From IMG/VR virus record IMGVR_UViG_3300010412_000065, positions 1 to 27,667 of that record: 27,667 bases of DNA; one strand, given 5' to 3'. The notes under the pieces are model-generated. The model saw nothing but the letters and a program-made list of their open reading frames with translations. It searched no databases and was not told the DNA's origin. The position numbers and the translations under genes are program-made. Numbering within the stretch: position 1 is the first letter of the stretch; each line of letters starts with the position of its first letter. This document shows positions 5,614 through 22,902 of the stretch, in pieces. This stretch comes from a virus.

Positions 5614-5967
5614 ATGAAAAGACCCATAAGAAAAGCAAAAAATGGAGACGAAACTCCAGTTCAAAAAGCTCGACGTGTAGTAAGAGAACAACAAAAAAAA
5701 GTAGATCAACAAAAAGATGATCAAAGAAGGATTAAAAGTATCGGAACTAAACCTCCGGTAACTGCAATCAAAAATGGAAAAGTAATAACGTTAGCTCCGT
5801 CTTCTATTGACGAAGCATTTAAAAAAGGAGGAATCATGAAAACAAAAATGAAAACAGGAGGGATGGTTAACCCTAACAAAAAAGCAACCGTTACTACCAA
5901 GGCTACAAAGTACACAGGTGGTAAGAATGGTACAATGATGAAAGGGAAAGGTACCAAGAAGAAGTAA
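5614..5967 (+). CDS. Small Lys-rich basic protein 1
   Basis: A 117-residue, strongly basic protein. The first half is an Arg/Lys/Gln helix (RRVVREQQKKVDQQKDDQRR). The second half is low-complexity Lys/Gly/Thr with KKGG, MKTGG and NPNKK phrases and a GKGTKKK tail. It has no membrane segment. It is the first of three adjacent basic genes and shares the KKGG and NP phrases with the next. Such proteins in large phages may neutralise packaged DNA or bind RNA. I know no defined function, and the composition alone does not prove DNA binding. Confidence 0.7.
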   Translation: MKRPIRKAKNGDETPVQKARRVVREQQKKVDQQKDDQRRIKSIGTKPPVTAIKNGKVITLAPSSIDEAFKKGGIMKTKMKTGGMVNPNKKATVTTKATKYTGGKNGTMMKGKGTKKK

Positions 5968-5989
5968 TAACCTTCAAAACTGAGAAATC

Positions 5990-6319
5990 ATGCCTAAAAA
6001 AACAGTAGTTATCGATCCGGAAGGAAATAAGATAATCACGAAAACAAGAACGACAAATCTTATGGGGCCTAAAGGTTCCAGCAAAGTTATCGTTAAGTAT
6101 GCTGATAAAGAATCATCAGGAAGACGTAGAGATGTTACAACTTACGATCCTCCTGCCATTTCCGATGAAGCATTGATGCGTAAAAAAGGAGGAACTACTC
6201 CAAAGAAATACGGCAAAGGAGGAACTTCTCCTAAACGAAATGGTATCGCCATGATGAAGAAAGGTGGAAAATCTAAAGCTTTCTTTAATCCTGGTATGTC
6301 CAAGGTTAAGAAGAAGTAA
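5990..6319 (+). CDS. Small Lys/Gly-rich basic protein 2
   Basis: A 109-residue basic protein. The first 60 residues look ordered (KTVVIDPEGNKIITKTRT). From residue 64 to the end it becomes a Gly/Lys low-complexity tail with repeated KKGG/GKGG units (RKKGGTTPKK, GKGGTSPKR, MKKGGKSKAF) and ends SKVKKK. It shares these phrases with the gene before it and the Lys-rich end with the gene after it. It has no signal peptide or membrane segment. It may be a virion-internal DNA-condensing or nucleoid-binding protein; that is inference from charge and clustering. Confidence 0.7.
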   Translation: MPKKTVVIDPEGNKIITKTRTTNLMGPKGSSKVIVKYADKESSGRRRDVTTYDPPAISDEALMRKKGGTTPKKYGKGGTSPKRNGIAMMKKGGKSKAFFNPGMSKVKKK

Positions 6320-6321
6320 CC

Positions 6322-6561
6322 ATGGCTTGCATGAAATGTGGAGGAGTTTCAAAAATGAAAGCTGGCGGAACCTCCAAAAAGAAACCATCGTCCGGGTTAA
6401 GCAAGAAGCAAAAATCTACCATTGCTAAAAAAGCAAGTGCCGGTAAAGATATCGGTAAGAAAGGTAAGATGTTTGACAAGATTGCCGCTAAAGCTGGAGG
6501 AGGAGAAAAAGGAAAACGTATTGCAGCCGCCGCAATGTGGAAAAACGCTAAAAGAGGCTAA
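6322..6561 (+). CDS. Small Lys-rich basic protein 3
   Basis: A 79-residue protein with 21 lysines and 2 arginines. It begins MACMKCGG, a single CxxC pair, followed by KKKPSSGLSKKQKSTIAKK and an Ala/Gly/Lys-rich end (AAKAGGGEKGKRIAAAAMWK). The end could form a basic amphipathic helix. It starts two bases after basic protein 2 and its stop abuts the lipoprotein gene. I have seen similar SKKQK/GKDIGKKGK proteins in large phage genomes but know no experimental function. Histone- or protamine-like DNA binding is a guess from composition. Confidence 0.7.
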   Translation: MACMKCGGVSKMKAGGTSKKKPSSGLSKKQKSTIAKKASAGKDIGKKGKMFDKIAAKAGGGEKGKRIAAAAMWKNAKRG

Positions 6562-10195: not shown

Positions 10196-10700
10196 ACTTT
10201 TTGAATTAGACGGCCGCACGGTTAAACCAACTGAACATTGTTATATGATCAGCTGGCTTAAAAGGATTATCGAAGATTATCCCGAGAATCACGTAAAAGT
10301 ATTCGCGTACATTTACTACACAAGTTATCTCGGGCCGGATAACCCATATTTCAATGTTCCGGAACTTGATAGGGATGACAAAATTGTTCGCGATTTGCAA
10401 CCTGATTTCAATATTGAGGATCCCGCTATAGTTTATGCCATCGATAGATGTAAGGAATTGTTCACTACTCCTACAATGAGATCGTATGATGCTATCAAAA
10501 CAATGCTTGAGAATCTGAATACATATCTGAAAACAACGGAGATTACCGATGGCCGGGATGGAAACATTGGAGCTTTGCTACGTGTTGCCAAAGAATTCAG
10601 AAGTGTTCGGGAATCATTCAAGGGTGTTTACGATGATGTTCAAGAAGAGAACAAAGTGAGAGCCCGAGGTAGTTCTAAACTTCCATATGACCTAAAGTAA
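10185..10700 (+). CDS. Conserved-looking protein next to the terminase (candidate small subunit)
   Basis: A 171-residue protein, mostly helical with a basic C-terminal tail (KVRARGSSKLPYDLK). It begins inside the nuclease gene (11-base overlap) and its stop overlaps the terminase start (TAATG). Small terminase subunits commonly sit at this spot and are helical proteins of 140-200 residues. I see no clear helix-turn-helix at the N-terminus, which they usually have. A terminase-associated role is therefore inference from position and size. Confidence 0.5.
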   Translation: MHIRLFELDGRTVKPTEHCYMISWLKRIIEDYPENHVKVFAYIYYTSYLGPDNPYFNVPELDRDDKIVRDLQPDFNIEDPAIVYAIDRCKELFTTPTMRSYDAIKTMLENLNTYLKTTEITDGRDGNIGALLRVAKEFRSVRESFKGVYDDVQEENKVRARGSSKLPYDLK

Positions 10701-12931
10701 TGATTAAATACGATCCCAAAAGAATAGGAGAGATTTACGAAAACATACCTTGTTGGAATAATGGGGTATGGGAATTGGTTTCTTTTGATTCCCGTGAGCA
10801 ATTTGCAGATACATTGGAATCTGAATATTTCAAAGAACCTGGAGAATATAACTTGGATGATATCGTTTACGAGTTTAAATCTCAAGCCATAAAATTTGAA
10901 CGGGATGACTACTATTGCGATTTCCTTGAGGGATCGATGGATTTTGAAGATTATTGGGATTTTGAAAAATTGAAATCGCGAAAAGGTGTCTTCTATTGGA
11001 ACGGGGAAAACAAATACTACTTATCAAGGTATTACTACTTCTGGATCAATTTCCTTCCAATTATCGATAAGGTAAAAAAGGTGCGAAGACTCAATGATAT
11101 TTGGGACACTCAAATATGGATGGACTTATACGAGTTCATAGGTGAACTGAAATACCTTCACGGAGTTGTTTTAAAGAAACGACAGTTTGGATCATCTTTG
11201 TATCACGTAGCCAAATTGATAAATCTTCTTTGGTTTGAAGACGCTCCAGTATTAAAAATGGGGGCATCGTTGGATGCTTACCTGACAGGTGTTAACGGAT
11301 CATGGAAATTTGCTCAAATGTACCGAACTCACCTAAACAAACATACAGCTTGGACAAGAGAAATGAACCCGGGTACAGTAGGGGAATGGGTTCAAAAACA
11401 AGAAGTAAACGAAGGGGGTAGAAAATACGATGTTGGTCTTATGGGAACTCTTCAAACTACATCTTTCCAACAATCGGATACAGCTGGTGTAGGGGGTCTA
11501 ACTACTATGTTCTTTTATGAAGAAGCCGGTATTGCCCCGAGGATGGACAAAACCTTGGAATTCTTGTTGCCTGCTATGGATGCAGGGGATATTAGAACCG
11601 GTTATTTTGTTGCCGCGGGAACCGTGGGTGATTTGGATCAGTGTAAACCATTGAAGACCTTTATTTACAAAGCCAAGGCAAACGGTTTTTATACAATCAA
11701 AAACAAGCATGTCAATTGGAAAGGTAGCATTCAAGAAACGGGATTGTTTGTACCCGAACAATATTCAATGCCGCCGTATATTGACAAATTTGGCAATTCT
11801 TTAGTTGAGGCCGCTACGGAAAGATTACTGGAACTGTATGCCGAATGGGAAAGAGATCTTGAACCCGAGGTGTGCCAAATCCGTAAATCTCAGCGACCTA
11901 TCAACATGCAAGTTGCATTTGCAGCAAGATCGGAATCAAGATTCCCTTTGGCATTGGTTGAAAGTCACAAATTGGAAGTAGATGACGGAAAGTATCCTTA
12001 CGAATTGATAGATCTGTCAGAAAAGGTTGATGGAACTATTGAAGCCAAATTGACAACCAAACCTCCAATACGAGATTTCCCGGTTGATAAAAAGATGGTT
12101 GATAAATCGGGATCCATTGTTGTATGGGAACGTCCAGATGAAAAACCTGAATGGGGTGTGTACTATGCCTCTATTGACCCCGTTTCCGAAGGTAAAACAA
12201 CTTCATCGGAATCCCTTTGTTCAATCTTTGTTTACAAAAATCCTGTACAGGTAACCCGATTTGAAAATGGAAGATCGCAAACTTTCATTGAAGGAGATAA
12301 GGTTGTTTGTTCATGGGCCGGTAGATTTGATGACATTAACGATACCCATAAACGATTGGAACTTATTATTCGATGGTATAACGCTTGGACTTTGGTTGAA
12401 GCAAACGTATCGTTATTCATTTTGTATATGATCCACCACAGGTTACAAAAATACCTGGTTCCTAAGAGTGAAATGATCTTCCTTAAAGAACACGGATTTA
12501 ATAATTCAAGTCACCAAGAGTACGGATGGAAGAACACCGGAACTCTATTTGTCAATAACCTACTCACTTATTTGATTGAATCTCTAAAAGAGAAAATTGC
12601 CGAAGAAACTGATGAAAATGGCAACGTGATCAAAGTCAAGTATGGAATAGAAAGAATTCCTGATACTATGGCATTAGAAGAAATGAAGCAGTATGAACAC
12701 GGACTAAACGTTGACCGCCTTATCTCTTTATCAGCTCTGATAGCCTTTGTAAAACTTCAAAATGCCAACAAAGGCTTCAAAAAGAGAATTGAAAGTATGG
12801 ACAACGAACACTTGCATAATTCGGATAAAATTTATAAATTAAATAAGAACGCTCCGTTCAAAAATATTGGCCGGGGTGGAACTGGTTTTGATATGAAGAA
12901 GAATAGAAACCCTTTTAGAAGATTAAGATAA
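10700..12931 (+). CDS. terL: Terminase large subunit (TerL)
   Basis: A 743-residue packaging ATPase/nuclease. The ATPase part has a P-loop-like LKKRQFGSS (158-166), in which the usual Lys of GK[ST] is Ser, and a Walker B-type TTMFFYEEAG (268-277) with Glu274/275. The nuclease domain starts near 485 with YYASIDPVSEG (Asp493), then TLVEANVS (Glu567), and NVDRLISLSALIAF (Asp672), the three acidic residues of the RNase H-like fold. It pumps DNA into proheads through the portal. The length and the RQxxSS loop recall crAss-like TerL proteins. It is coupled to the upstream 171-residue protein and followed two bases later by the portal gene. Confidence 0.88.
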   Translation: MIKYDPKRIGEIYENIPCWNNGVWELVSFDSREQFADTLESEYFKEPGEYNLDDIVYEFKSQAIKFERDDYYCDFLEGSMDFEDYWDFEKLKSRKGVFYWNGENKYYLSRYYYFWINFLPIIDKVKKVRRLNDIWDTQIWMDLYEFIGELKYLHGVVLKKRQFGSSLYHVAKLINLLWFEDAPVLKMGASLDAYLTGVNGSWKFAQMYRTHLNKHTAWTREMNPGTVGEWVQKQEVNEGGRKYDVGLMGTLQTTSFQQSDTAGVGGLTTMFFYEEAGIAPRMDKTLEFLLPAMDAGDIRTGYFVAAGTVGDLDQCKPLKTFIYKAKANGFYTIKNKHVNWKGSIQETGLFVPEQYSMPPYIDKFGNSLVEAATERLLELYAEWERDLEPEVCQIRKSQRPINMQVAFAARSESRFPLALVESHKLEVDDGKYPYELIDLSEKVDGTIEAKLTTKPPIRDFPVDKKMVDKSGSIVVWERPDEKPEWGVYYASIDPVSEGKTTSSESLCSIFVYKNPVQVTRFENGRSQTFIEGDKVVCSWAGRFDDINDTHKRLELIIRWYNAWTLVEANVSLFILYMIHHRLQKYLVPKSEMIFLKEHGFNNSSHQEYGWKNTGTLFVNNLLTYLIESLKEKIAEETDENGNVIKVKYGIERIPDTMALEEMKQYEHGLNVDRLISLSALIAFVKLQNANKGFKKRIESMDNEHLHNSDKIYKLNKNAPFKNIGRGGTGFDMKKNRNPFRRLR

Positions 12932-12933
12932 TT

Positions 12934-15702
12934 ATGCAAATCAAAAACGCATTACAAATTAGAGATGAAGGAGGAACTCCTGATCCAAGGGGGTTTAATT
13001 CATTTACCCAACCTATTCAATTTTTATCAAAAGAAGAAAAGGATGAAAGATGGGCTCAACACAATTTAGATTGGTTAGAGTGGCAAGGAGTTAAACAGCT
13101 CCGTTATAGTGCACGCCGTCTTCTCAAAAACTACAAATTAGCAAAAGGAACTATTGACAAATCGGATTACATTCCAACACCGGAAATAAACGATATGTCC
13201 GAATTGGTTGATTTGCTACAATCGGATTTCGTCAATGACAATACTGAAAACTCTGCGATGGAGTTGAAGTTCTATCCGATCATTCCTAATGTAATCAATG
13301 TTTTGGTAGCCGAGTTTGCTAAACGAAACACTAAAATTGATTACCGGGCAGTTGATGAATATTCGTACAACGAGATCCTTACAAATAAAATGGCGGAAAT
13401 TGAATCCGTATTATTGGAGGATGCTCAAAGCAAACTGATTGCAAAAATGGTGGAAATGGGAATGGATCCTAATTCCGAAGAAGCACAGCAACAGTTTGAT
13501 CCGGAAGTAATGAAAAAGCTTCCAGAAATTGAAGAATTTTATTCTAAGACATATCAAACTCTTGGAGAACGTTGGGCTGTAAAACAACATCAAGTTGATA
13601 CCAACAGATTCCATTTGGATGAACTTGAAGAGATTGCGTTCAAGGACATGCTTATTACCGATAGAGAGTTTTGGCATTTTAGAATGTTGGAAGAAGATTA
13701 CATGGTTGAATTATGGAACCCGGTTCTTACATTCTACCATAAATCTCCAGATGTAAGATACATTTCTCAAGGAAGTTGGGTAGGTAAGATTGATATGATG
13801 ACCTTATCCGATGTAATTGACTATTATGGTCCATTCTTGAATACGGATCAGTTGGCACAACTTGAACACTTATATCCTGTACGCGCGGGAAGGTATCTAC
13901 TGGATGGAGTTCAAAATGATGGTTCTTTCTACAATCCTCAATTACCTCATGAAAAGAACTTGGCTCCATCTCTTCAAATGAAGCAATGGTTGTCGTGGAA
14001 TGAAAACGCATATAATCCCGATGATATTATTGCGTGGATTATTGGACAGAGTGAGCATACAGGAATGCTTCACGATCACCAAATGCTTCGTGTAACAACG
14101 GCATATTGGAAATCACAGCGTAAGGTAGGGTATCTTACAAGCATCAATGAAGGAGGAGAAGTTGTAGTAGATATTGTTGACGAAAACTACGTTATTTCAA
14201 ACAACCCTATCTACAACAACAAGTTCGATAAGAGAAAGAATGCTGAAACTTTGGTATTTGGAGATCATATCGAATGGATATGGATTAACCAGGTATGGGG
14301 TGGTGTAAAAATTGGACCAAACCGTATGGTATTCCAAGATACCTTGGACAAAGATGACATGTTGCCTATTTACATCGGAATCAATACCAACAAAATTGGC
14401 CCGATGCGTTTCCAATTCAAAGGAGATGATTCATTGTATGGTTGCAAACTTCCTGTAGAAGGTAAGGTATTCACGGAACGTAACACTAAGTCAACAGCTT
14501 TAGTTGATTTGATGAAACCGGCTCAAATTGGATTCAACCTGGTTAATAACCAAATTGCCGACATTCTTATTGATGAAATAGGAACAGTGATTGCTTTGGA
14601 TCAGAATGCTTTACCTCGTCATTCTTTGGGTGAAGATTGGGGCAAAGGAAACTATGCTAAAGCTTATGTTGCCATGAAGGACTTTTCAATCCTTCCATTG
14701 GATACGTCTATTACCAATACTGAAAATGCTCTGAACTTCTCACATTACCAAACGTTGAACTTGGAGCAGTCACAAAGATTGATGACGCGTATTCAAATGG
14801 CAAACTTCTTCAAGCAACAGGCATTAGAAGTGATTGGGATTACTCCTCAACGATTAGGTCAGCAAATAGGACAAACCGATACGGCCCGAGGAGTAGAACA
14901 AGCTGTGGCCGGTTCCTATGCTCAAACTGAAATGTACTTCATTCAGCATTCAGACTACTTGATGCCGAGAGTACACCAAATGAGAACCGATCTTGCTCAA
15001 TATTACCATTCTCAAAAACCATCTGTTCGTTTACAGAACATGCTGGCAAATGATGAACGGACATTCTTTGAAATCAACGGTACAGATCTCCTATTAATCG
15101 ATCTCAATGTATTCTGCAGAACCAACGCAAATCATCGAGCAATAATGGAAAAGATTCAGCAGTTGGCTGTACAAAACAATACTTCCGGAGCATCTATCTA
15201 TGAATTAGGAGAGGTAATGAGTGCCGACTCGTTAGGTACACTCAATATCAAGCTGAAAGAGATGGAAGTCAAGGCTGAAGAACGAGCACAAGCACAAGCT
15301 CAACAAGAACAGCAATTGGAAGAAATGAAGATCCAAGCTCGTAAGGAAGAAATGAAAATGCAGCAGGATCACGAATCCCGAGAAAAGGAAAAAGACCGCA
15401 GAGCAAGACTTATGGAAGCAGAAATCAAAGCTGCGGGTTATGGTGCTATGCAAGATGTTAACCAAAACCAACAGTCTGATTTTATGGACGTTCTCCAGCA
15501 AGTTAAATCTTCAGAGGAATATCAAGACACTATGAGTCTTAAACGTGAAGCTGAAAACAATAAAACAAGTGTAGCAAATAGAAAGTTGGACTTGGAACAG
15601 CAGAAAATTGAAGTGGCTCGCCAGGATTCAGAAAACAGACTGAAGATTGCCCGAGAAAATCAAACTAAAAGTGAAATAGAAAGCAAGAAGAAAAATAAAT
15701 AA
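12934..15702 (+). CDS. Portal protein
   Basis: A 922-residue protein directly after TerL. Residues about 630-690 have ITPQRLGQQIGQTDTARGVE and then SYAQTEMYFIQHSDYL, which resembles the region I recall in crAss-like portal proteins. The last 150 residues are a long Gln/Glu/Lys coiled coil (AQAQQEQQLEEMKIQARKEE), longer than most portals need. The portal forms the dodecameric ring at the head vertex through which TerL packages DNA and to which the connector binds. Identification rests on order, size and the motif; the coiled coil may face the inside of the head. Confidence 0.8.
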   Translation: MQIKNALQIRDEGGTPDPRGFNSFTQPIQFLSKEEKDERWAQHNLDWLEWQGVKQLRYSARRLLKNYKLAKGTIDKSDYIPTPEINDMSELVDLLQSDFVNDNTENSAMELKFYPIIPNVINVLVAEFAKRNTKIDYRAVDEYSYNEILTNKMAEIESVLLEDAQSKLIAKMVEMGMDPNSEEAQQQFDPEVMKKLPEIEEFYSKTYQTLGERWAVKQHQVDTNRFHLDELEEIAFKDMLITDREFWHFRMLEEDYMVELWNPVLTFYHKSPDVRYISQGSWVGKIDMMTLSDVIDYYGPFLNTDQLAQLEHLYPVRAGRYLLDGVQNDGSFYNPQLPHEKNLAPSLQMKQWLSWNENAYNPDDIIAWIIGQSEHTGMLHDHQMLRVTTAYWKSQRKVGYLTSINEGGEVVVDIVDENYVISNNPIYNNKFDKRKNAETLVFGDHIEWIWINQVWGGVKIGPNRMVFQDTLDKDDMLPIYIGINTNKIGPMRFQFKGDDSLYGCKLPVEGKVFTERNTKSTALVDLMKPAQIGFNLVNNQIADILIDEIGTVIALDQNALPRHSLGEDWGKGNYAKAYVAMKDFSILPLDTSITNTENALNFSHYQTLNLEQSQRLMTRIQMANFFKQQALEVIGITPQRLGQQIGQTDTARGVEQAVAGSYAQTEMYFIQHSDYLMPRVHQMRTDLAQYYHSQKPSVRLQNMLANDERTFFEINGTDLLLIDLNVFCRTNANHRAIMEKIQQLAVQNNTSGASIYELGEVMSADSLGTLNIKLKEMEVKAEERAQAQAQQEQQLEEMKIQARKEEMKMQQDHESREKEKDRRARLMEAEIKAAGYGAMQDVNQNQQSDFMDVLQQVKSSEEYQDTMSLKREAENNKTSVANRKLDLEQQKIEVARQDSENRLKIARENQTKSEIESKKKNK

Positions 15703-15839: not shown

Positions 15840-17114
15840 ATGTCAAAAGAAAACACGACAATTAAAGAAGTAGAAGTTGATGATTTGGATGATCTGTTAG
15901 GAACTAAAGCAGCAACGGTCATCACTCCTACTGAAGATTCTAAACGAAGTGTACTTGAGAATGCAGCTGTAGACACATCGTTCCTTGACAACATGGATGG
16001 AGAAGGAGAAGATCCGAACCCGGGCATGACTAATAACTCTACCCCAACTTCAAAAGATCCGTTGGCAGATGTATTAGATGCTGACTTGAACAGAGAGGAT
16101 GAAGATGACGAAGATGAAGATCCTACTCCTCAAGGAGCTAAACCTGCGGCACAACAAAAAGCAGGAAGAAAACCGGGATTGGTTGAAATTGCAGACAAAC
16201 TTGCTAAAAAAGGATTGATTGATTTGTTTGAAGATAACCAGGATCTTTCGACATATACGTTGGAAGATTTTGAAGAGTTATTTGAAACAAACATGATTGC
16301 TAAAATAAACGAGGTAGCTCAAGCAGCTCCTCTTGAAATTTTTGGCAAACTTGATCCTAAACTTCAAGATGTTATTTCCTATGCCTTAAATGGAGGTACG
16401 GATATCACAAACGTTTTGAAGAATGTCGCAAGAGCTCAAGAAATTACAGAACTTACATTAGATACTCCGGAGAACCAAGAACGTATTGTTCGGGAATGGT
16501 TAAGAGAAACCGGTAGTTATTCCGATGAAGAAATTGAAGATGAAATTACATCTTACATTGATCGTAATGAACTTGAGAGAAAAGCATCTCAATTCAAACC
16601 AAAATTGGATAAGAAGCAGGCCGAGATAATGGAGAAAAAACTCCTGGAACAGGAAGAAAAACGCAGATTGGCAGAAGAAACCAAAAAGAATTATGCGGAA
16701 AAAATCTTCCACACTTTGAATCGCCCTGATCTTAACGGATTAAAACTCAACAACAGAATCCAAACAGCATTGTACTACGGTATTACAGATACTTCTCAAT
16801 ATCAAGACAGAGAAGGTAATCCTACCAATGAATTGGGTTATTTGATTGAAAAATACCAACTTGGTAAAGAAGCCGATACTTCAGTTTTACTTGAAGCACT
16901 TTGGTTACTTAAAGATCCTGTTGGTTATCGTCAATCGGTTCTTTCAATAGGACAGCAACAAGCTCACGCTAAAACATTCAGAAGCTTGAAAACTGCCGAA
17001 GGAGAACGAGTTACCTCTTCATCTAAACAAGGAGAAGAAAGAAATACGCCGACGAGGGGAACTCTTCAGCGTAATAAGAACAAGAACTCAAGAAGTATTT
17101 TCTCGAGGGATTAA
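15840..17114 (+). CDS. Probable scaffolding protein
   Basis: A 424-residue protein between portal and major capsid genes. The N-terminal 100 residues are disordered-looking and acidic (REDEDDEDEDP at 85-95). The centre is helical, with a strong charged coiled coil at about 250-285 (KLLEQEEKRRLAEETKKNYA). The C-terminus is basic and Ser/Asn-rich (RNKNKNSRSIFSRD). This order of an acidic disordered part, helix and basic capsid-binding tail, placed just before the capsid gene, is typical of internal scaffolds that shape the prohead and leave or are cut. No protease motif is visible. It is preceded by the repeated leader. Confidence 0.7.
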   Translation: MSKENTTIKEVEVDDLDDLLGTKAATVITPTEDSKRSVLENAAVDTSFLDNMDGEGEDPNPGMTNNSTPTSKDPLADVLDADLNREDEDDEDEDPTPQGAKPAAQQKAGRKPGLVEIADKLAKKGLIDLFEDNQDLSTYTLEDFEELFETNMIAKINEVAQAAPLEIFGKLDPKLQDVISYALNGGTDITNVLKNVARAQEITELTLDTPENQERIVREWLRETGSYSDEEIEDEITSYIDRNELERKASQFKPKLDKKQAEIMEKKLLEQEEKRRLAEETKKNYAEKIFHTLNRPDLNGLKLNNRIQTALYYGITDTSQYQDREGNPTNELGYLIEKYQLGKEADTSVLLEALWLLKDPVGYRQSVLSIGQQQAHAKTFRSLKTAEGERVTSSSKQGEERNTPTRGTLQRNKNKNSRSIFSRD

Positions 17115-17140: not shown

Positions 17141-18751
17141 ATGACACCAAGTTTAAACAATGGTCTATTTTTGAGGGACAACCTTTACGTTGCATCTTCT
17201 CATATTGACTCGTACCACCTGATGAACTTGATGAAGGATGCGAAACCAGACGATTTGGGACCAATTGATATGTGGGCTCAACTTCAGAAGGTTGAAATGC
17301 CCCTTTATCAAATGTCTTCTTTCAATGGAAAGAATGTAATCGATGTTGAACATCCTAACGGAGAATTTACTTGGAGAACTCCGGTTTCCGAGGAGATGCC
17401 TTACATTGCTGAGGACATTTCAAATACTCGGACTCCAGGTATTGACGGAACTACATTCCAGATCAAATTGAACAAGCGTTCATTTGGTCACGGAGACATC
17501 ATTACTTACGACAAGTACAACGGATTGGAACTTTACATCACTGCAGATGATATTCTGGATATGGGTGATGGAGTGATCTACACTGTACGTCTTGTTGACA
17601 ATGATGTAAATGCGTTCCTTGATCCACAGTTCTTGGAGTGTAACACTGAATACTTCCGAGTATCTTCTGCTCGTGGAGAATATGGTGAGCGTTTCTCTGA
17701 CATGACTACTCAGGCTTCTTCTCGTGAATTCTACAACTATGTAGGAAACGCTGAAGCTCACGTTCACTATTCAATCTCTTCTCGTGTAAAGTTGATGGAA
17801 AAAGGAGGAATGACAATTGACGGTAAGATTCCGGTAACGGAAATTTGGCGTTCTTTTGACAATTCTCTTGACCCGTCAATCAACACTTTGGATGGTATGA
17901 TCAAAGCAAAAGGATCAGACTATGTAAAGCGTGCAGTAGAGAATGGAGAGCTTGTTAAGACTTTCTTGACAAAGATGGAAGCAGCTCACCTTTCTAAGAT
18001 TGCATACGATATCGAAACTTACCTAATGTGGGGTAAAGGAGGTCGTATCACTCAGGATGGTCCAGATGATCTTCGTCTTTCTGTCGGTCTTTGGAAGCAG
18101 CTTGACAATGCGTTCAAGCATGTTTACAACAAGGTTGACTTCCGTTTGGATATGTTCCGTGCTGAACTTCTTAACTTCTTCCGTGGAAAAGTTGAGTTTG
18201 AAGGACCGGATTCTAAGCGTGAACTTATCGTTCAGACAGGTATCGCAGGTATGAAGATGATCAACGATGCAGTTTTGAAAGAAGCTGTTAAGTCTGGTCT
18301 TGTTCTTAATGCCTTTGAACTTGGAGCAGTTGAAAGAAAAGGAATGGATCTTGGATTTGGATTTGCGTTCACTTCTTACCACATTCCTTTCTTGGCAAAC
18401 GTTAAGTTCGTATTGAACCCTGCATTTGACAACGTTCACCAGAACAAGATTGAGAACCCAATCATTGATGGTTACCCACTTTCTTCTTACTCATTCATCA
18501 TCTTTGATGTTACTGATACAGGAAGTGACAACATCAAACTTCTTCGTAAGAAGTGGGATTCTGAATTGAAGTGGTGGTATCAGAATGGTACAATGGACTA
18601 CATGGGCCGTACACAAGGATTCCAGTCAAACGGAAACTTCAACGGATACCGTGTATACATGACACAGGCTATGCCGGCAATCTGGGTAGAGGATCCAACA
18701 AAAGTTCTCAAAATCGTTATGCGTAACCCTATTACAGGATTCAGCTTGTAA
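17141..18751 (+). CDS. Major capsid protein
   Basis: A 536-residue protein following the scaffold and closed by a strong terminator. Arginine is coded by CGT at 18 of 23 positions, whereas terminase and portal mix AGA, CGA and CGT; such bias fits very high expression. The sequence shows the mix of extended and helical segments expected for an HK97-type coat (for example FGHGDIITYDKYNG near 115 and FGFAFTSYHIPFLANVKFVL near 405), but I recognise it mainly by order and expression signs. Many copies would form the icosahedral head shell. The start at 17141 follows an A-rich spacer without Shine-Dalgarno. Confidence 0.8.
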   Translation: MTPSLNNGLFLRDNLYVASSHIDSYHLMNLMKDAKPDDLGPIDMWAQLQKVEMPLYQMSSFNGKNVIDVEHPNGEFTWRTPVSEEMPYIAEDISNTRTPGIDGTTFQIKLNKRSFGHGDIITYDKYNGLELYITADDILDMGDGVIYTVRLVDNDVNAFLDPQFLECNTEYFRVSSARGEYGERFSDMTTQASSREFYNYVGNAEAHVHYSISSRVKLMEKGGMTIDGKIPVTEIWRSFDNSLDPSINTLDGMIKAKGSDYVKRAVENGELVKTFLTKMEAAHLSKIAYDIETYLMWGKGGRITQDGPDDLRLSVGLWKQLDNAFKHVYNKVDFRLDMFRAELLNFFRGKVEFEGPDSKRELIVQTGIAGMKMINDAVLKEAVKSGLVLNAFELGAVERKGMDLGFGFAFTSYHIPFLANVKFVLNPAFDNVHQNKIENPIIDGYPLSSYSFIIFDVTDTGSDNIKLLRKKWDSELKWWYQNGTMDYMGRTQGFQSNGNFNGYRVYMTQAMPAIWVEDPTKVLKIVMRNPITGFSL

Positions 18752-18770: not shown

Positions 18771-18804
18771 AACTCCCCGGTAGAAAATATCGGGGAGTTT
18801 TTTT
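18771..18804 (+). terminator. Strong intrinsic terminator after the capsid gene
   Basis: AACTCCCCGGTA pairs with TATCGGGGAGTT (12 pairs, one G-T) around the loop GAAAA, followed by seven Ts. It starts 20 bases after the capsid stop and should limit read-through into the connector genes. Confidence 0.9.
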
Positions 18805-18834: not shown

Positions 18835-19842
18835 ATGATTGAAGATGTTAAAGAACGCTTTGCGAAAGTAGGCAGGATTACAGTAAGACCTTATTGTGAT
18901 CCAAACAAAGAAAACATGGGACTTGAAAACTACAACATGGTGGTATTTCCTGGAACTTCTCAAAGAGAACCCATGGCTTGTATTGAGCAAAATGGAAGAA
19001 TCCGATACTTAAATGGATTGGATGAATCCGCACCAGAAGTTAAGGGAATTACTGATGAGGAAAAGAGAAATGCTCGCATCAGAGAAATTCGATCAATTGT
19101 TGCCATGCTTGAATTTGAAAAGCATTACAACACGATTGATATTAACGATCCTGACTTTTGGAATAAAGTTCAAACGTACAAACCGAACAATGTTGAATTC
19201 TGGAGTAAGATTGCTTTTGATTTGACAAACGATACCATTTACTTGGATCCAATTAATAGAACCGAGGACTTGTTAAAGGTATTGGCTATTGAAGCAGGAG
19301 GATTCCCTCTTATTGCAAAAAATAAAGAGGATTGTACATCAGGACTTCACAAAAGAAAGTGGTATTTGGATCGTCAGATTGATACTGCACAGAATAAAGC
19401 AAGTATCAGTAAGATCAAGAATAAAGCTGCGGCTCTTCTTGATTCTATTTCTGAAGAAATGCCGAGAAAACTATTCTACATTGCTAAGTTGATTTCAACA
19501 AATAGCATGCAGTACAAGAACTCGACAATCAATGATACCATCTATGATCATTTGGATGAATTCATTAACGGTAACGGAAATGAGCCAAATGTCAAAAAAG
19601 CTGCACAGCAGTTCATTGATTACACTGCCCTCGACATGCAAGAACTTAAAGTTCGTGCTATGATTAAGGATGCTACGTTCTACAAATTTATTATCTTAAA
19701 AGGAGATGGTTTACTTTACCTTACTCCGGAAAACGTAATGGTTGGTAGAAATTCATCTGAGGTTTACGAATACTTGATCAATCCGATGAATGAAGAGATT
19801 TTGGTTCTTCTTCAGGAGAGAGTGGAAAACACTTGGAATTAA
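18835..19842 (+). CDS. Uncharacterised protein of the head/connector block
   Basis: A 335-residue protein, mixed helical and beta, with a Lys-rich helix at about 175-205 (RQIDTAQNKASISKIKNKAA). It has no signal peptide, membrane segment or catalytic motif that I can name. It follows the capsid terminator and a copy of the repeated leader, and precedes the probable connector by nine bases. Position suggests a head-completion or capsid-associated protein. I recall no named family. Confidence 0.65.
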   Translation: MIEDVKERFAKVGRITVRPYCDPNKENMGLENYNMVVFPGTSQREPMACIEQNGRIRYLNGLDESAPEVKGITDEEKRNARIREIRSIVAMLEFEKHYNTIDINDPDFWNKVQTYKPNNVEFWSKIAFDLTNDTIYLDPINRTEDLLKVLAIEAGGFPLIAKNKEDCTSGLHKRKWYLDRQIDTAQNKASISKIKNKAAALLDSISEEMPRKLFYIAKLISTNSMQYKNSTINDTIYDHLDEFINGNGNEPNVKKAAQQFIDYTALDMQELKVRAMIKDATFYKFIILKGDGLLYLTPENVMVGRNSSEVYEYLINPMNEEILVLLQERVENTWN

Positions 19843-19851
19843 TAAAGAGCT

Positions 19852-20550
19852 ATGGACAATTTGACTTTAAAACTGAAAATTCAACAGCGGCTAAATAAGT
19901 TGGCCAGCTTTGATTATGATAACATTCAGAATTGGCAAATTGTCGAAGCTTTTAACAAGGCAACGGTTGATTGGTGCCGTAGACAATTACACGGCACCAA
20001 TTTAACCAAAACTGGAGACGAACAGAGTAAACGCAGAATTGACGATTTGCAGATTCTACTCAAGACAGCAACTCCTATTGCAAGTAAAAAAGACTTGTAC
20101 TACACAATCAATATCCCGGACGATTATTTTGAATACAAAAGGGTATCTTTCAAAGCAACTACCGAATGCTGTGAAGCAAACGATTTTGTAGTGTACCTGG
20201 TTGAAGAAGAGAACGTAGACATTTATCTACGAGATCCTCTTAAGAATCCAAACTTTAAATGGAGAGAAACGTTCTGTACTCTCCTCGGTAATACGGTAAA
20301 GATTTTCACCAAAAACAATTTCGATATTTCGGACGTGTTGTTTACATACTACAAGCAACCAAGACGAATTGAATTTGCGGGAACATCAAACCCGTACACA
20401 GGACTTGTTTCTGCAGCTGATGTAGAATCAGAGTTTAAAGATGATATCGTAGAAGTTCTTATTGACGAATGTGTTAAGATACTTGCGGCCGATATTGAAA
20501 ATTACAATAGGAACCAATTAGCGGATCAGTCCGTAGAATCAAATAACTAA
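19852..20550 (+). CDS. Probable head-tail connector/adaptor protein
   Basis: A 232-residue protein. The N-terminal 70 residues are helical with ASFDYDNIQNWQIVEAFNKA and QLHGTNLTKTGDEQSKRRID, phrases I associate with crAss-like head-tail connector proteins. The middle is beta-rich, and a helical end follows (DDIVEVLIDECVKILAADI). Such adaptor proteins form a ring under the portal and begin the tail. It sits between an unknown head-block protein and the ferritin gene, with seven bases to the latter. The identification depends on remembered family resemblance and position. Confidence 0.6.
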   Translation: MDNLTLKLKIQQRLNKLASFDYDNIQNWQIVEAFNKATVDWCRRQLHGTNLTKTGDEQSKRRIDDLQILLKTATPIASKKDLYYTINIPDDYFEYKRVSFKATTECCEANDFVVYLVEEENVDIYLRDPLKNPNFKWRETFCTLLGNTVKIFTKNNFDISDVLFTYYKQPRRIEFAGTSNPYTGLVSAADVESEFKDDIVEVLIDECVKILAADIENYNRNQLADQSVESNN

Positions 20551-20557
20551 TCTAAAA

Positions 20558-21187
20558 ATGGAAAAGCGTTTATTAGCTCGTAAAGTTCCCTCAACTCCGG
20601 TACAAAGTGCTGTATCATCAGCTACCGCAGCTTTAGATAAAGGAACATCTGCTACAAAAAAAGCAGCAAATGGAATTGAAAAATCCAATCCAATCAATCC
20701 TTTGATTGATCCTGTATGCGTTGATTTCTTGAATTATCGCATTGAACAAGAAGAATATTCAGCTCGTATCTACAAATCAATGGAGATGTGGTTGAATAAC
20801 AAAGGGTATACCGGTGCTTCAAAAGTCTGGGGAAAGTATTCCGCAGAAGAAATGGCTCACGCAGATTGGGCTCGTACTTACCTATTGTCTTTTGGGATCC
20901 AACCTTTGACTCCTGCTTTGGAACAACCGAATCAGAGTTACGCAGGATTACCGGAAATTATCAGAATGTCTTTTGATCATGAGATTGATGTTTCAAATCA
21001 GATCAAGGAGATGGCTGACCATGCGTTGGAATACAAATCTCACATGCTTTACGAACTGTGCTTGAAGTACATGAAAGAGCAAGTTGAGGAGCATGACAAA
21101 ATGCAAACTTGGATCGACAAGTTAGAAGCTTTCGGTACAGATAAGATTGCGTTGAGATTGTTGGACAACGAAATGGCTGAATATTAA
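20558..21187 (+). CDS. Ferritin (FtnA-type) with N-terminal extension
   Basis: A 209-residue protein. Residues about 51-205 match bacterial non-haem ferritin as a four-helix bundle. Aligned by eye to E. coli FtnA, all iron-site residues are kept: Glu65 (E17) and Tyr72 (Y24) in EQEEYSARIY; Glu98 (E50) and His101 (H53) in AEEMAHAD; Glu142 (E94) in FDHEIDV; Glu174, Gln175 and Glu178 (E126, Q127, E130) in KEQVEEHD. It should therefore oxidise ferrous iron and may build a 24-subunit cage. The first 50 residues are an Ala/Ser/Thr/Lys-rich extension absent from FtnA, possibly a virion-targeting tail. It sits seven bases after the connector gene and 83 bases before a major virion gene. Function as iron store, antioxidant or virion component is unknown. 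Confidence 0.88.
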   Translation: MEKRLLARKVPSTPVQSAVSSATAALDKGTSATKKAANGIEKSNPINPLIDPVCVDFLNYRIEQEEYSARIYKSMEMWLNNKGYTGASKVWGKYSAEEMAHADWARTYLLSFGIQPLTPALEQPNQSYAGLPEIIRMSFDHEIDVSNQIKEMADHALEYKSHMLYELCLKYMKEQVEEHDKMQTWIDKLEAFGTDKIALRLLDNEMAEY

Positions 21188-21226
21188 TAATTTCAATCAA
21201 TTGTTTTGTAATTCAAAATAATTTGG

Positions 21227-21270: not shown

Positions 21271-22902
21271 ATGAGTTATTTTTCGCACGCCTTTAATAAG
21301 GCATTCGTCGGAACAAAGCCTACACAGGCAGCGTCTCCAACTCAAAATGCTGTTGATGACGGTATGCTTACAACAGCTGGTGTTCCAACTTCTGCACTGA
21401 AGAATGCCGGTGCGCCTAATGGTTTAGGAGTAGGAACTTTTGGATTCTTCAACAAGAATACGTATTTGTCTGTAAACGCTGCTTCTACGGAAGTAACTAC
21501 AGGACAGCCGTTGATTCTTGCGGGAGCTTCTCTTATGAGCAGTGACAAGATTGGACCATTCCACGGAGGGTACCAAGAGTCAAACAAATCGAAGTACATC
21601 AACCCTAAGATGGTTAATAACTTCTACAAGATGACCGCGGCTGCTCCAGAGCAGGCTGTATGGCATATTGGGGTTACTAACTTCCAAGGAGGTACTTCAT
21701 TGTTGTTTACCGCTCCGTGTGGTGCCGGATATACTCCAGGTACTTACACTAACGTACCTACAACAACTTCAGGTGCAGGTACAGGATTGACAGTTGACGT
21801 AGTAGTTAACGCTTCAGGTGAAATCGTATCAATGGTAGAAAATGCCGTAGGTACAGGTTACCTTGTAGGTGATACAATTACTCCGGATCCTGTTACTCTT
21901 GGACATGATGGAGTTGGTGCAGAGTGTACTACTACTGAGATCGCTACAGTAGGAACACAGAACTGCGAGTTTGAGTTCTTGTGTGGTGAAACATACAACC
22001 TCTTCATTCAGTTACACGGAAACCCTGTACTGAAGTATTTGAACCATGACTCTTACAGAATTTTGGCTGCTTACACTGGATGTTGTCCTGAAGGAACAAT
22101 CGCGCCGGTAGCAGTTGATTCAACTCTTGTAATGATCGATTGGGCTAACCAAATCATCACTTCTCCTTACCTGAAGGAGTTCATCCGTCCGGTTGTATTC
22201 GATGAAACAGGAAAGCCTTGGTTTGCTACTGCTGATGAAGCTATCGCTGCAGGATGGACTGCTAACGATGTTTGGACAAACTATACATCTACAGGTCACA
22301 TTGATGGAGCTCTTGCTGGTATCCGTATCGTAGGTGCATACATTGATACTCGTTTCGGTACTTGTACATTCCAAACTTCAGACTACTACCAGAAGGAAGT
22401 GGTTCGTATTTGGAACATCTCTCTTACTGACGAGAATGGAGATCCTTGTACATTCAAAGGATTGTGTGTTGCACAGGAATGTTGCGGATTTGGAGGTCAA
22501 GGTTTCGGAGATACTTATGTTCGTGAATTGATTCTTTCTGAATCTTACTTGCAGAACAAGTTCTCTACAGATCTTCGTATTCGTGAGATCACTCAGGGAA
22601 CTGATATCTTCAATGCACTTCCTCCGGTGAATGGTGCTAACCAGCCGTTGTACTACGACAAGTATGTTATTCAGCATGTTGTTCCGCGTTACAACAACCC
22701 ATCTTCAGTACATGACAATGATCAGTACAACCTGGTTATTTATGTACCTGCGGGTGCGGCATCTGCATCTTTGGAAACATTCATGCAGAAATGGTTACAG
22801 GCTGCAGGAAATCCTCTTGGGGATGAAATCGCTGCAAATGGTGTTACAGAATACGGTCACGTTGCTTGTACTCCTGTTGCAATTCCTGCTCCGCTACCTT
22901 AA
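21271..22902 (+). CDS. Major virion protein (probably tail) with inserted Gly-rich domain
   Basis: A 543-residue protein with its own promoter-like motif and terminator. Eight of its nine Arg codons are CGT, as in the capsid gene, so it is probably made in large amounts. Residues about 150-227 form an inserted domain with GAGYTPGTYTNVP ... GTGYLVGDTIT, a Gly/Thr-rich beta unit seen as a bead in many phage surface proteins. The remainder is Cys-rich in places (CCPEG at 271, QECCGFGG near 408). It could be the main tail tube or sheath-like protein, or a head decoration protein. I cannot choose from sequence. Confidence 0.65.
   Translation: MSYFSHAFNKAFVGTKPTQAASPTQNAVDDGMLTTAGVPTSALKNAGAPNGLGVGTFGFFNKNTYLSVNAASTEVTTGQPLILAGASLMSSDKIGPFHGGYQESNKSKYINPKMVNNFYKMTAAAPEQAVWHIGVTNFQGGTSLLFTAPCGAGYTPGTYTNVPTTTSGAGTGLTVDVVVNASGEIVSMVENAVGTGYLVGDTITPDPVTLGHDGVGAECTTTEIATVGTQNCEFEFLCGETYNLFIQLHGNPVLKYLNHDSYRILAAYTGCCPEGTIAPVAVDSTLVMIDWANQIITSPYLKEFIRPVVFDETGKPWFATADEAIAAGWTANDVWTNYTSTGHIDGALAGIRIVGAYIDTRFGTCTFQTSDYYQKEVVRIWNISLTDENGDPCTFKGLCVAQECCGFGGQGFGDTYVRELILSESYLQNKFSTDLRIREITQGTDIFNALPPVNGANQPLYYDKYVIQHVVPRYNNPSSVHDNDQYNLVIYVPAGAASASLETFMQKWLQAAGNPLGDEIAANGVTEYGHVACTPVAIPAPLP

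Follow-up and report, generated by a model that had tools for sequence, protein, structure and literature searches.

Gene order of the window

The window, by which we mean the whole stretch of DNA analysed (27,667 bases), is a fragment of a crAss-like phage. It encodes a crAss-type major capsid protein (MCP), a terminase and a portal protein (PF23898, E 1.7e-29; phrog_6681; phrog_6547), and its gene order agrees with that of Cellulophaga phage phi17:2 and of crAss001. The closest named phage by MCP, Leptolyngbya phage Lbo-JY46, is remote (26.9% identity). The following features were assigned:

10700..12931, + strand: terminase large subunit (TerL; phrog_6681, E 5e-41)
12934..15702, + strand: portal protein (phrog_6547, E 7e-84)
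15840..17114, + strand: probable scaffold-position gene in the portal/MCP interval (position and conservation; no family match)
17141..18751, + strand: MCP, Crass_capsid (Pfam PF23898, E 1.7e-29)
18771..18799, + strand: terminator-like hairpin directly 3' of the MCP gene (pattern match alone)
18835..19842, + strand: gene at the crAss001 gp33 position (weak profile similarity)
19852..20550, + strand: upstream neighbour of the ferritin gene, ring-type virion structural protein ('connector'; PHROG virion structural protein, 2.7e-12)
20551..21198, + strand: segment absent from the nearest relatives L108 and L109 (blastn of the flanks)
20558..21187, + strand: ferritin gene, 209 aa, FtnA-type, with all ferroxidase ligands (Pfam, PDB match, AlphaFold model)
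20558..20698, + strand: N-terminal tail of the ferritin, residues 1-47, predicted disordered (pLDDT mostly < 50 for residues 1-39)
21271..22902, + strand: downstream neighbour, conserved late gene with CGT-biased Arg codons (conservation, codon use)

The ferritin gene begins with an ATG 7 bp past the stop codon of the upstream gene, and pattern matching found no terminator-like hairpin on the + strand between the two. The upstream ring gene is a homologue of phi17:2 gp064, which is annotated as 'structural protein' (hhalign probability 98.6, E 7e-16); its match to crAss001 gp34 is weak on its own. The downstream neighbour occupies the place of the crAss001 auxiliary capsid gene by position alone, and its equation with crAss001 gp36 or phi17:2 gp063 was dropped because profile comparison was non-significant. 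The preliminary description of this DNA had placed a ferritin inside a virion operon, and this is where we found it, with the gene of a ring-type virion protein upstream and a conserved late gene downstream. Host contamination or misassembly was rejected since the gene and its neighbours recur in about 60 other contigs.

Identity, predicted structure and active site of the ferritin

The gene encodes an FtnA-type ferritin with a complete ferroxidase site. Residues 56-190 match Pfam PF00210 Ferritin (E 6.1e-20) with 72 bits at a curated cut-off of 24.5, and the top PDB sequence match is the Vibrio ferritin 3qz3 (E 1.9e-21). The score of 67.8 stays under the NCBIfam cut-off for E. coli FtnA equivalogs (178), as expected of a distant member. 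The corresponding PHROG, phrog_16594, has no assigned function. Residues E65, Y72, E98 and H101 of the window ferritin correspond to E17, Y24, E50 and H53 of E. coli FtnA, and E142, E174, Q175 and E178 to E94, E126, Q127 and E130; E177 (FtnA E129) is kept too.

Relatives were collected from two viral-contig scans and from loci fetched by capsid protein, which yielded 78 distinct ferritins (79 with that of the window). Nine of the ten site residues checked are invariant in 79/79 of these phage sequences, including all FtnA ligands and the Tyr72 named in the preliminary description, and E97 (FtnA E49, site C) is Glu in 59 of the 79. The median pairwise dN/dS of the phage ferritins is 0.18. Together with the invariant site residues this value indicates that the ferritin is maintained for its chemistry.

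In the AlphaFold model (AF2) the core reaches pLDDT values > 90 and forms a four-helix bundle with a fifth helix (residues 52-81, 85-111, 131-158, 162-192 and 196-207). Foldseek aligned it with E. coli FtnA (1eum) at a TM-score (target) of 0.96 and an rmsd of 1.0. The bundle and the site residues, whose absence would have spoken against the initial assignment, are both present. The protein presumably assembles into a 24-subunit cage. CGT accounts for 4/7 Arg codons, as had been counted before; the share is 18/23 in the MCP gene, 8/9 in the downstream late gene and 3/35 in TerL. This codon use resembles that of highly expressed late genes and is consistent with high late expression of the ferritin.

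Position of the gene in different phage lineages

We distinguished two groups of crAss-like phages: group A comprises the relatives of the window, whose MCPs are for the most part 64-72% identical, and group B is a separate group, whose TerL and portal proteins are only about 23-26% identical to those of the window. In group A the ferritin gene lies invariably 3' of the ring-type gene and is followed by the late gene in 59 loci, by a gene for a DUF5856 protein in 3 and by the contig end in 6. In group B it usually lies immediately 3' of the portal gene. Further arrangements were seen in other lineages: the ferritin gene precedes TerL in L011, lies 3' of muzzle-like gp44 genes in L046 and L050, overlaps in L054 with the terminal part of a gene for a virion RNA polymerase (PDB 6vr4, E 2.7e-17), and is directly 3' of such a gene in L055 and L056. 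In the HK97-type phage L049 it precedes the protease and MCP genes; upstream of this ferritin gene and overlapping it, a protein matching nudix hydrolase and ParB-like nuclease is encoded (L049:8736-10004). The relatives thus keep both the site residues and the location in a virion module, two points at which the preliminary reading could have failed.

Ferritins across these phage groups are 41-70% identical to that of the window, and the ferritin tree needs at least 5 switches between groups A and B. These data indicate transfers of the gene from one phage group to another. A recent pick-up of a host gene was provisionally set aside: the ferritins of the phages cluster in one clade, which a long branch separates from the Bacteroidota ferritins sampled. 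Nested in this clade are two sequences from Bacteroidota genomes (in Maribacter the full gene lies amid host genes) and the ferritin of a small MAG contig, L105 (5.5 kb), with 61% identity. L105 was assigned to a Tissierellales bacterium by binning but may in fact derive from a phage. Ferritin matches of 24-29% identity in human-faecal 'Bacteriophage sp.' entries, which are unannotated and unverified records, were also set aside. Neither ferritin nor DUF5856 was found when the virion regions of phi17:2, of Lbo-JY46 and of crAss001 were scanned.

Occupancy of the slot

Slot loci were collected by MCP, so that the sampling was independent of the ferritin; all slot counts are descriptive, as the contigs were not dereplicated and the counts were taken among the matches listed. 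Among the matches listed, the group-A slot (42 loci with both flanks) holds DUF5856 in 29 cases and ferritin in 4, is empty in 7 and holds another gene in 2. In the portal-scaffold interval of group B (61 loci among the matches listed) we found ferritin in 24 cases, DUF5856 in 17, both in 5 and neither in 15. This capsid-based sampling showed that the ferritin does not belong to the core genes of the group.

The closest relatives, whose MCP is 93% identical to that of the window, have a clean empty site: L108 has 10 bp where the window has 648 bp, and the flanks are about 75% identical on both sides (blastn). Since the slot is empty in these nearest relatives and in 7/42 group-A loci (among the matches listed), the ferritin gene is accessory and dispensable. 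Ferritin and DUF5856 are both present in 13 loci, and they occur side by side at L004:10606-11034, L014:10627-11058, L039:4297-5241 and L021:9546-10492; the two are therefore not strictly exclusive. In group B, homing-endonuclease-like genes and further small genes occur in the slot as well, which makes it partly a general insertion site. The 'other' occupants in L110 and L111 are sequences like three adjoining small proteins that the window encodes at 5614-6561; these are rich in Lys and Gly and contain repeats of the motif K-x-GG/GGM.

DUF5856 as alternative occupant

The slot proteins of loci lacking ferritin match Pfam DUF5856 (E 3e-11 to 3e-18) and phrog_858, which is labelled 'starvation-inducible transcriptional regulator'. 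Searches with the DUF5856 and ferritin profiles gave no hits in common. The AlphaFold model of the L172 protein is a four-helix bundle that is matched best by Dps: VIA returned MsDps2 with Z 16.2 (rmsd 2.2 A over 126 residues), and the matches below it are mostly Dps chains as well, with Foldseek E-values of only about 0.01. As spacing reference we used the ferroxidase residues H51, H63, D78 and E82 of E. coli Dps. The resulting pattern H-x11-H-x14-D-x3-E is exact in 46/48 DUF5856 proteins, and with a first gap of variable length it also covers the remaining 2. DUF5856 is thus predicted to be a Dps-like protein with a Dps-type ferroxidase site and a Dps fold.

This family is widespread in T4-like phages, and its gene lies directly 3' of the portal gene in two unrelated podoviruses. 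The homologue in phiR1-37, g280, is annotated as 'phage structural protein'; g280 is not mentioned in the phiR1-37 papers searched. DUF5856/phrog_858, which is frequent in T4-like and other phages and has until now been labelled unknown or 'transcriptional regulator', hereby gains a likely biochemical role. By eye, a gene for a GroES-like co-chaperonin was seen near the group-B portal/DUF5856 slot (L021:10656-10919, L250:8466-8729), and in DSL-LC05, an unrelated podovirus, an annotated GroES-like gene adjoins the portal and DUF5856 genes (L291:3567-3815).

The N-terminal tail and its tag

The extra stretch of 50 residues reported in the preliminary description does exist: it comprises about 47-50 residues, is placed at the N terminus, is predicted to be disordered and is rich in Ala, Ser, Thr, Lys and Pro. 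In the window it opens with MEKRLLARK, a degenerate form of a tag (xLKR) that is common to the ferritin and DUF5856 slot proteins of group-A relatives. The resemblance of these starts can be seen from MEQKPRMLKRPEVVK (ferritin, L007) and MEKPRMLKRNPESVS (DUF5856, L124); the tag leads into a linker that varies in length, beyond which the domains are unrelated. Within the first 18 residues, strict LKR is present in 29/78 ferritins, 24/48 DUF5856 proteins and 14/2260 other proteins. A looser pattern, which was picked after inspecting the data, is carried in group A by 40/48 ferritins and 31/32 DUF5856 proteins, in group B by 0/24 and 0/16, and by 91/2313 other proteins. The Leu codons of the tag are variable in both families, the Lys and Arg codons in the ferritins only. 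Since all three vary in the ferritins, the tag is kept there at the amino-acid level.

Group B has alternative common starts. Both neighbouring genes of L039 (ferritin and DUF5856) start with MALDINK, and MEVPK is common to the L040 ferritin and the L199 DUF5856 protein. When tag and phage group were compared on the ferritin tree, nearly all pairings went in the same direction and none in the opposite one; this comparison rests on 3 supported group switches, too few for significance. Tail length varies, and the ferritins of L049 and L054-L056 are without a tail. A tail so rich in Lys and Arg could have DNA, and not a virion protein, as its binding partner.

Among the downstream cargo proteins of group A, we found one weak match to the LKR tag; these proteins carry a different basic motif. 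Consecutive large genes 3' of the muzzle gene, a cargo block by position, have a common basic N-terminal motif (approximately VRIKKLPxAxxG / MKKLKRxxP) that distantly recalls the LKRP tag (L299:12481-17310, L299:17319-20000, L302:3080-6007, L297:10308-14012 and L050:10486-17980). This motif is possibly an address signal for cargo.

Comparison with known systems

The window ferritin is like bacterial FtnA (PF00210; 1eum, 3qz3) in its fold (TM about 0.95), in ferroxidase sites A and B, in the presence of the Tyr24 equivalent and in a mostly kept site C. It differs from bacterial FtnA in its low identity (27-30% in structural alignments), its membership of a phage-enriched clade with the signature NYRIEQEE, the disordered tagged N-terminal tail of about 47 aa and the place of its gene in a virion operon. 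DUF5856/phrog_858 resembles it in slot, group-A tag and ferritin-superfamily fold, but its ferroxidase site is of the Dps type (H, H, D, E) and not of the FtnA type. The 'Gratiaviridae' also encode ferritin-superfamily enzymes, for which a role in oxidative stress was proposed; these phages belong to another family, and the passage on them concerns Dps and Mn-catalase, with neither a ferritin of FtnA type nor a common slot coming up in it (PMC8008677).

In crAss001, gp45/gp46 and the RNA polymerase gp47-50 are non-structural proteins packed into the virion as cargo (PMC10172136). The ferritin genes of L046, L050 and L054-L056 lie in the gene block that corresponds to this cargo block; that of the window, in contrast, lies in the ring-gene slot, and the crAss001 region scanned gave no ferritin or DUF5856 match. 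In the open-access literature (preprints excluded) we found nothing directly relevant on ferritin or Dps in crAss-like phages or on DUF5856 beyond PMC8008677, and no report of an FtnA-type ferritin at a fixed virion-operon position or of an exchange of ferritin and Dps-like proteins in one slot with a common N-terminal tag. Phage Dps genes are already known.

Possible function of the slot proteins

Our data directly support the identity of the ferritin, its complete and conserved site, purifying selection, a fixed slot, the exchange with a Dps-like protein and a group-specific tag. One slot and one tag for two types of cage suggest that the phage recruits a cage to the particle or to the assembly line. 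Since two ferroxidases without recognisable sequence homology are exchanged under one tag, these data further suggest that selection acts on an iron- and peroxide-consuming cage at the slot and not on iron storage by ferritin as such. Cage assembly, activity, docking, virion incorporation and DNA protection are what we infer from this pattern.

The ferritin would be an Fe2+-oxidising cage, encoded in an exchangeable slot of the late virion operon and produced late and in quantity. In ferritin cages the subunit N-termini are exposed on the outside. The xLKR tag on the flexible tail may be the address by which the cage docks to a protein of the virion or of the assembly machinery, and the outward-facing tails could attach several tags to a particle protein, either inside the head near the portal or at an assembly complex. 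The docked cage would consume Fe2+ along with O2/H2O2 and might in this way limit Fenton damage to packaged or stored DNA; the best fit is a shielding of the DNA while it is packaged or once it lies in the head. We regard it as an even call that the slot encodes such a swappable ferroxidase cage, docked by its tag to the virion or assembly machinery and limiting iron/peroxide damage to phage DNA. More tentatively, and with the balance tilting against it, crAss-like phages may possess a modular system that docks an FtnA- or Dps-type nanocage to the virion via an interchangeable tag and so protects the packaged genome. If so, the particles would carry their own antioxidant or iron-detoxifying organelle. 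A tag that acts as virion address would offer a natural means by which crAss-like capsids could be loaded with protein cages, and a concrete experimental handle on whether the phage actively protects packaged DNA from iron chemistry.

Chief among the alternatives is an enzyme that accumulates free in the cytoplasm late in infection, sequesters iron freed by the breakdown of host proteins and limits oxidative damage or defence chemistry; the place in the late operon would then be due to high expression alone, and the tail would bind DNA or be a leftover. We consider this a serious possibility, although the lesser part of the probability falls to it. The intact ferroxidase site, the CGT-biased codons, the accessory distribution with its clean empty site and the wide occurrence of DUF5856 in T4-like phages are all in line with it, and so are the Dps and Mn-catalase genes described for gut 'Gratiaviridae' phages (PMC8008677). 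A free enzyme leaves unexplained why two families at one slot have one N-terminal tag, why this tag differs between the two phage groups and why separate lineages place the gene by portal, ring, muzzle and virion RNA polymerase genes.

The slot might also be a plain insertion hotspot for neutral or mildly useful genes, with the common N-terminus marking recombination in a conserved 5' end. The homing-endonuclease-like and uncharacterised genes in the group-B slot and the patchy presence of slot genes would fit such a hotspot. However, a member of the ferritin superfamily fills 33/42 group-A slots, against 2 with any other gene (among the matches listed), the site residues are invariant at a dN/dS of 0.18, and recombination at the DNA level alone cannot preserve LKR across synonymous codon changes in the ferritins. 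We therefore judge the hotspot improbable.

Among the roles raised in the preliminary description, protection and iron oxidation are favoured by the exchange with a Dps-like protein, and a cargo of iron specific to ferritin is disfavoured. The latter includes the Ferrojan-type proposal that the virion carries iron-loaded ferritin to aid entry or to feed the infected cell; the Ferrojan Horse phage proper would have iron in its tail proteins that engages receptors of siderophore type. A true member of an iron-storage family in a virion operon speaks for this proposal, but most relatives use the Dps-like protein instead, and in the window's group there is no link to tail-tip or receptor-binding genes. 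Moreover, a folded ferritin cage is about 12 nm wide and too large to pass the portal channel intact, so that delivery of intact iron-loaded cages by ejection seems very unlikely. The cargo of crAss001 was proposed to be ejected partly unfolded (PMC10172136). Least credible is a purely structural role, in which the helical bundle would be a building block of the virion and catalysis irrelevant: the gene does sit among structural genes, but the ferroxidase ligands are invariant in 79/79 sequences and the replacement, DUF5856, keeps a different but complete ferroxidase site.
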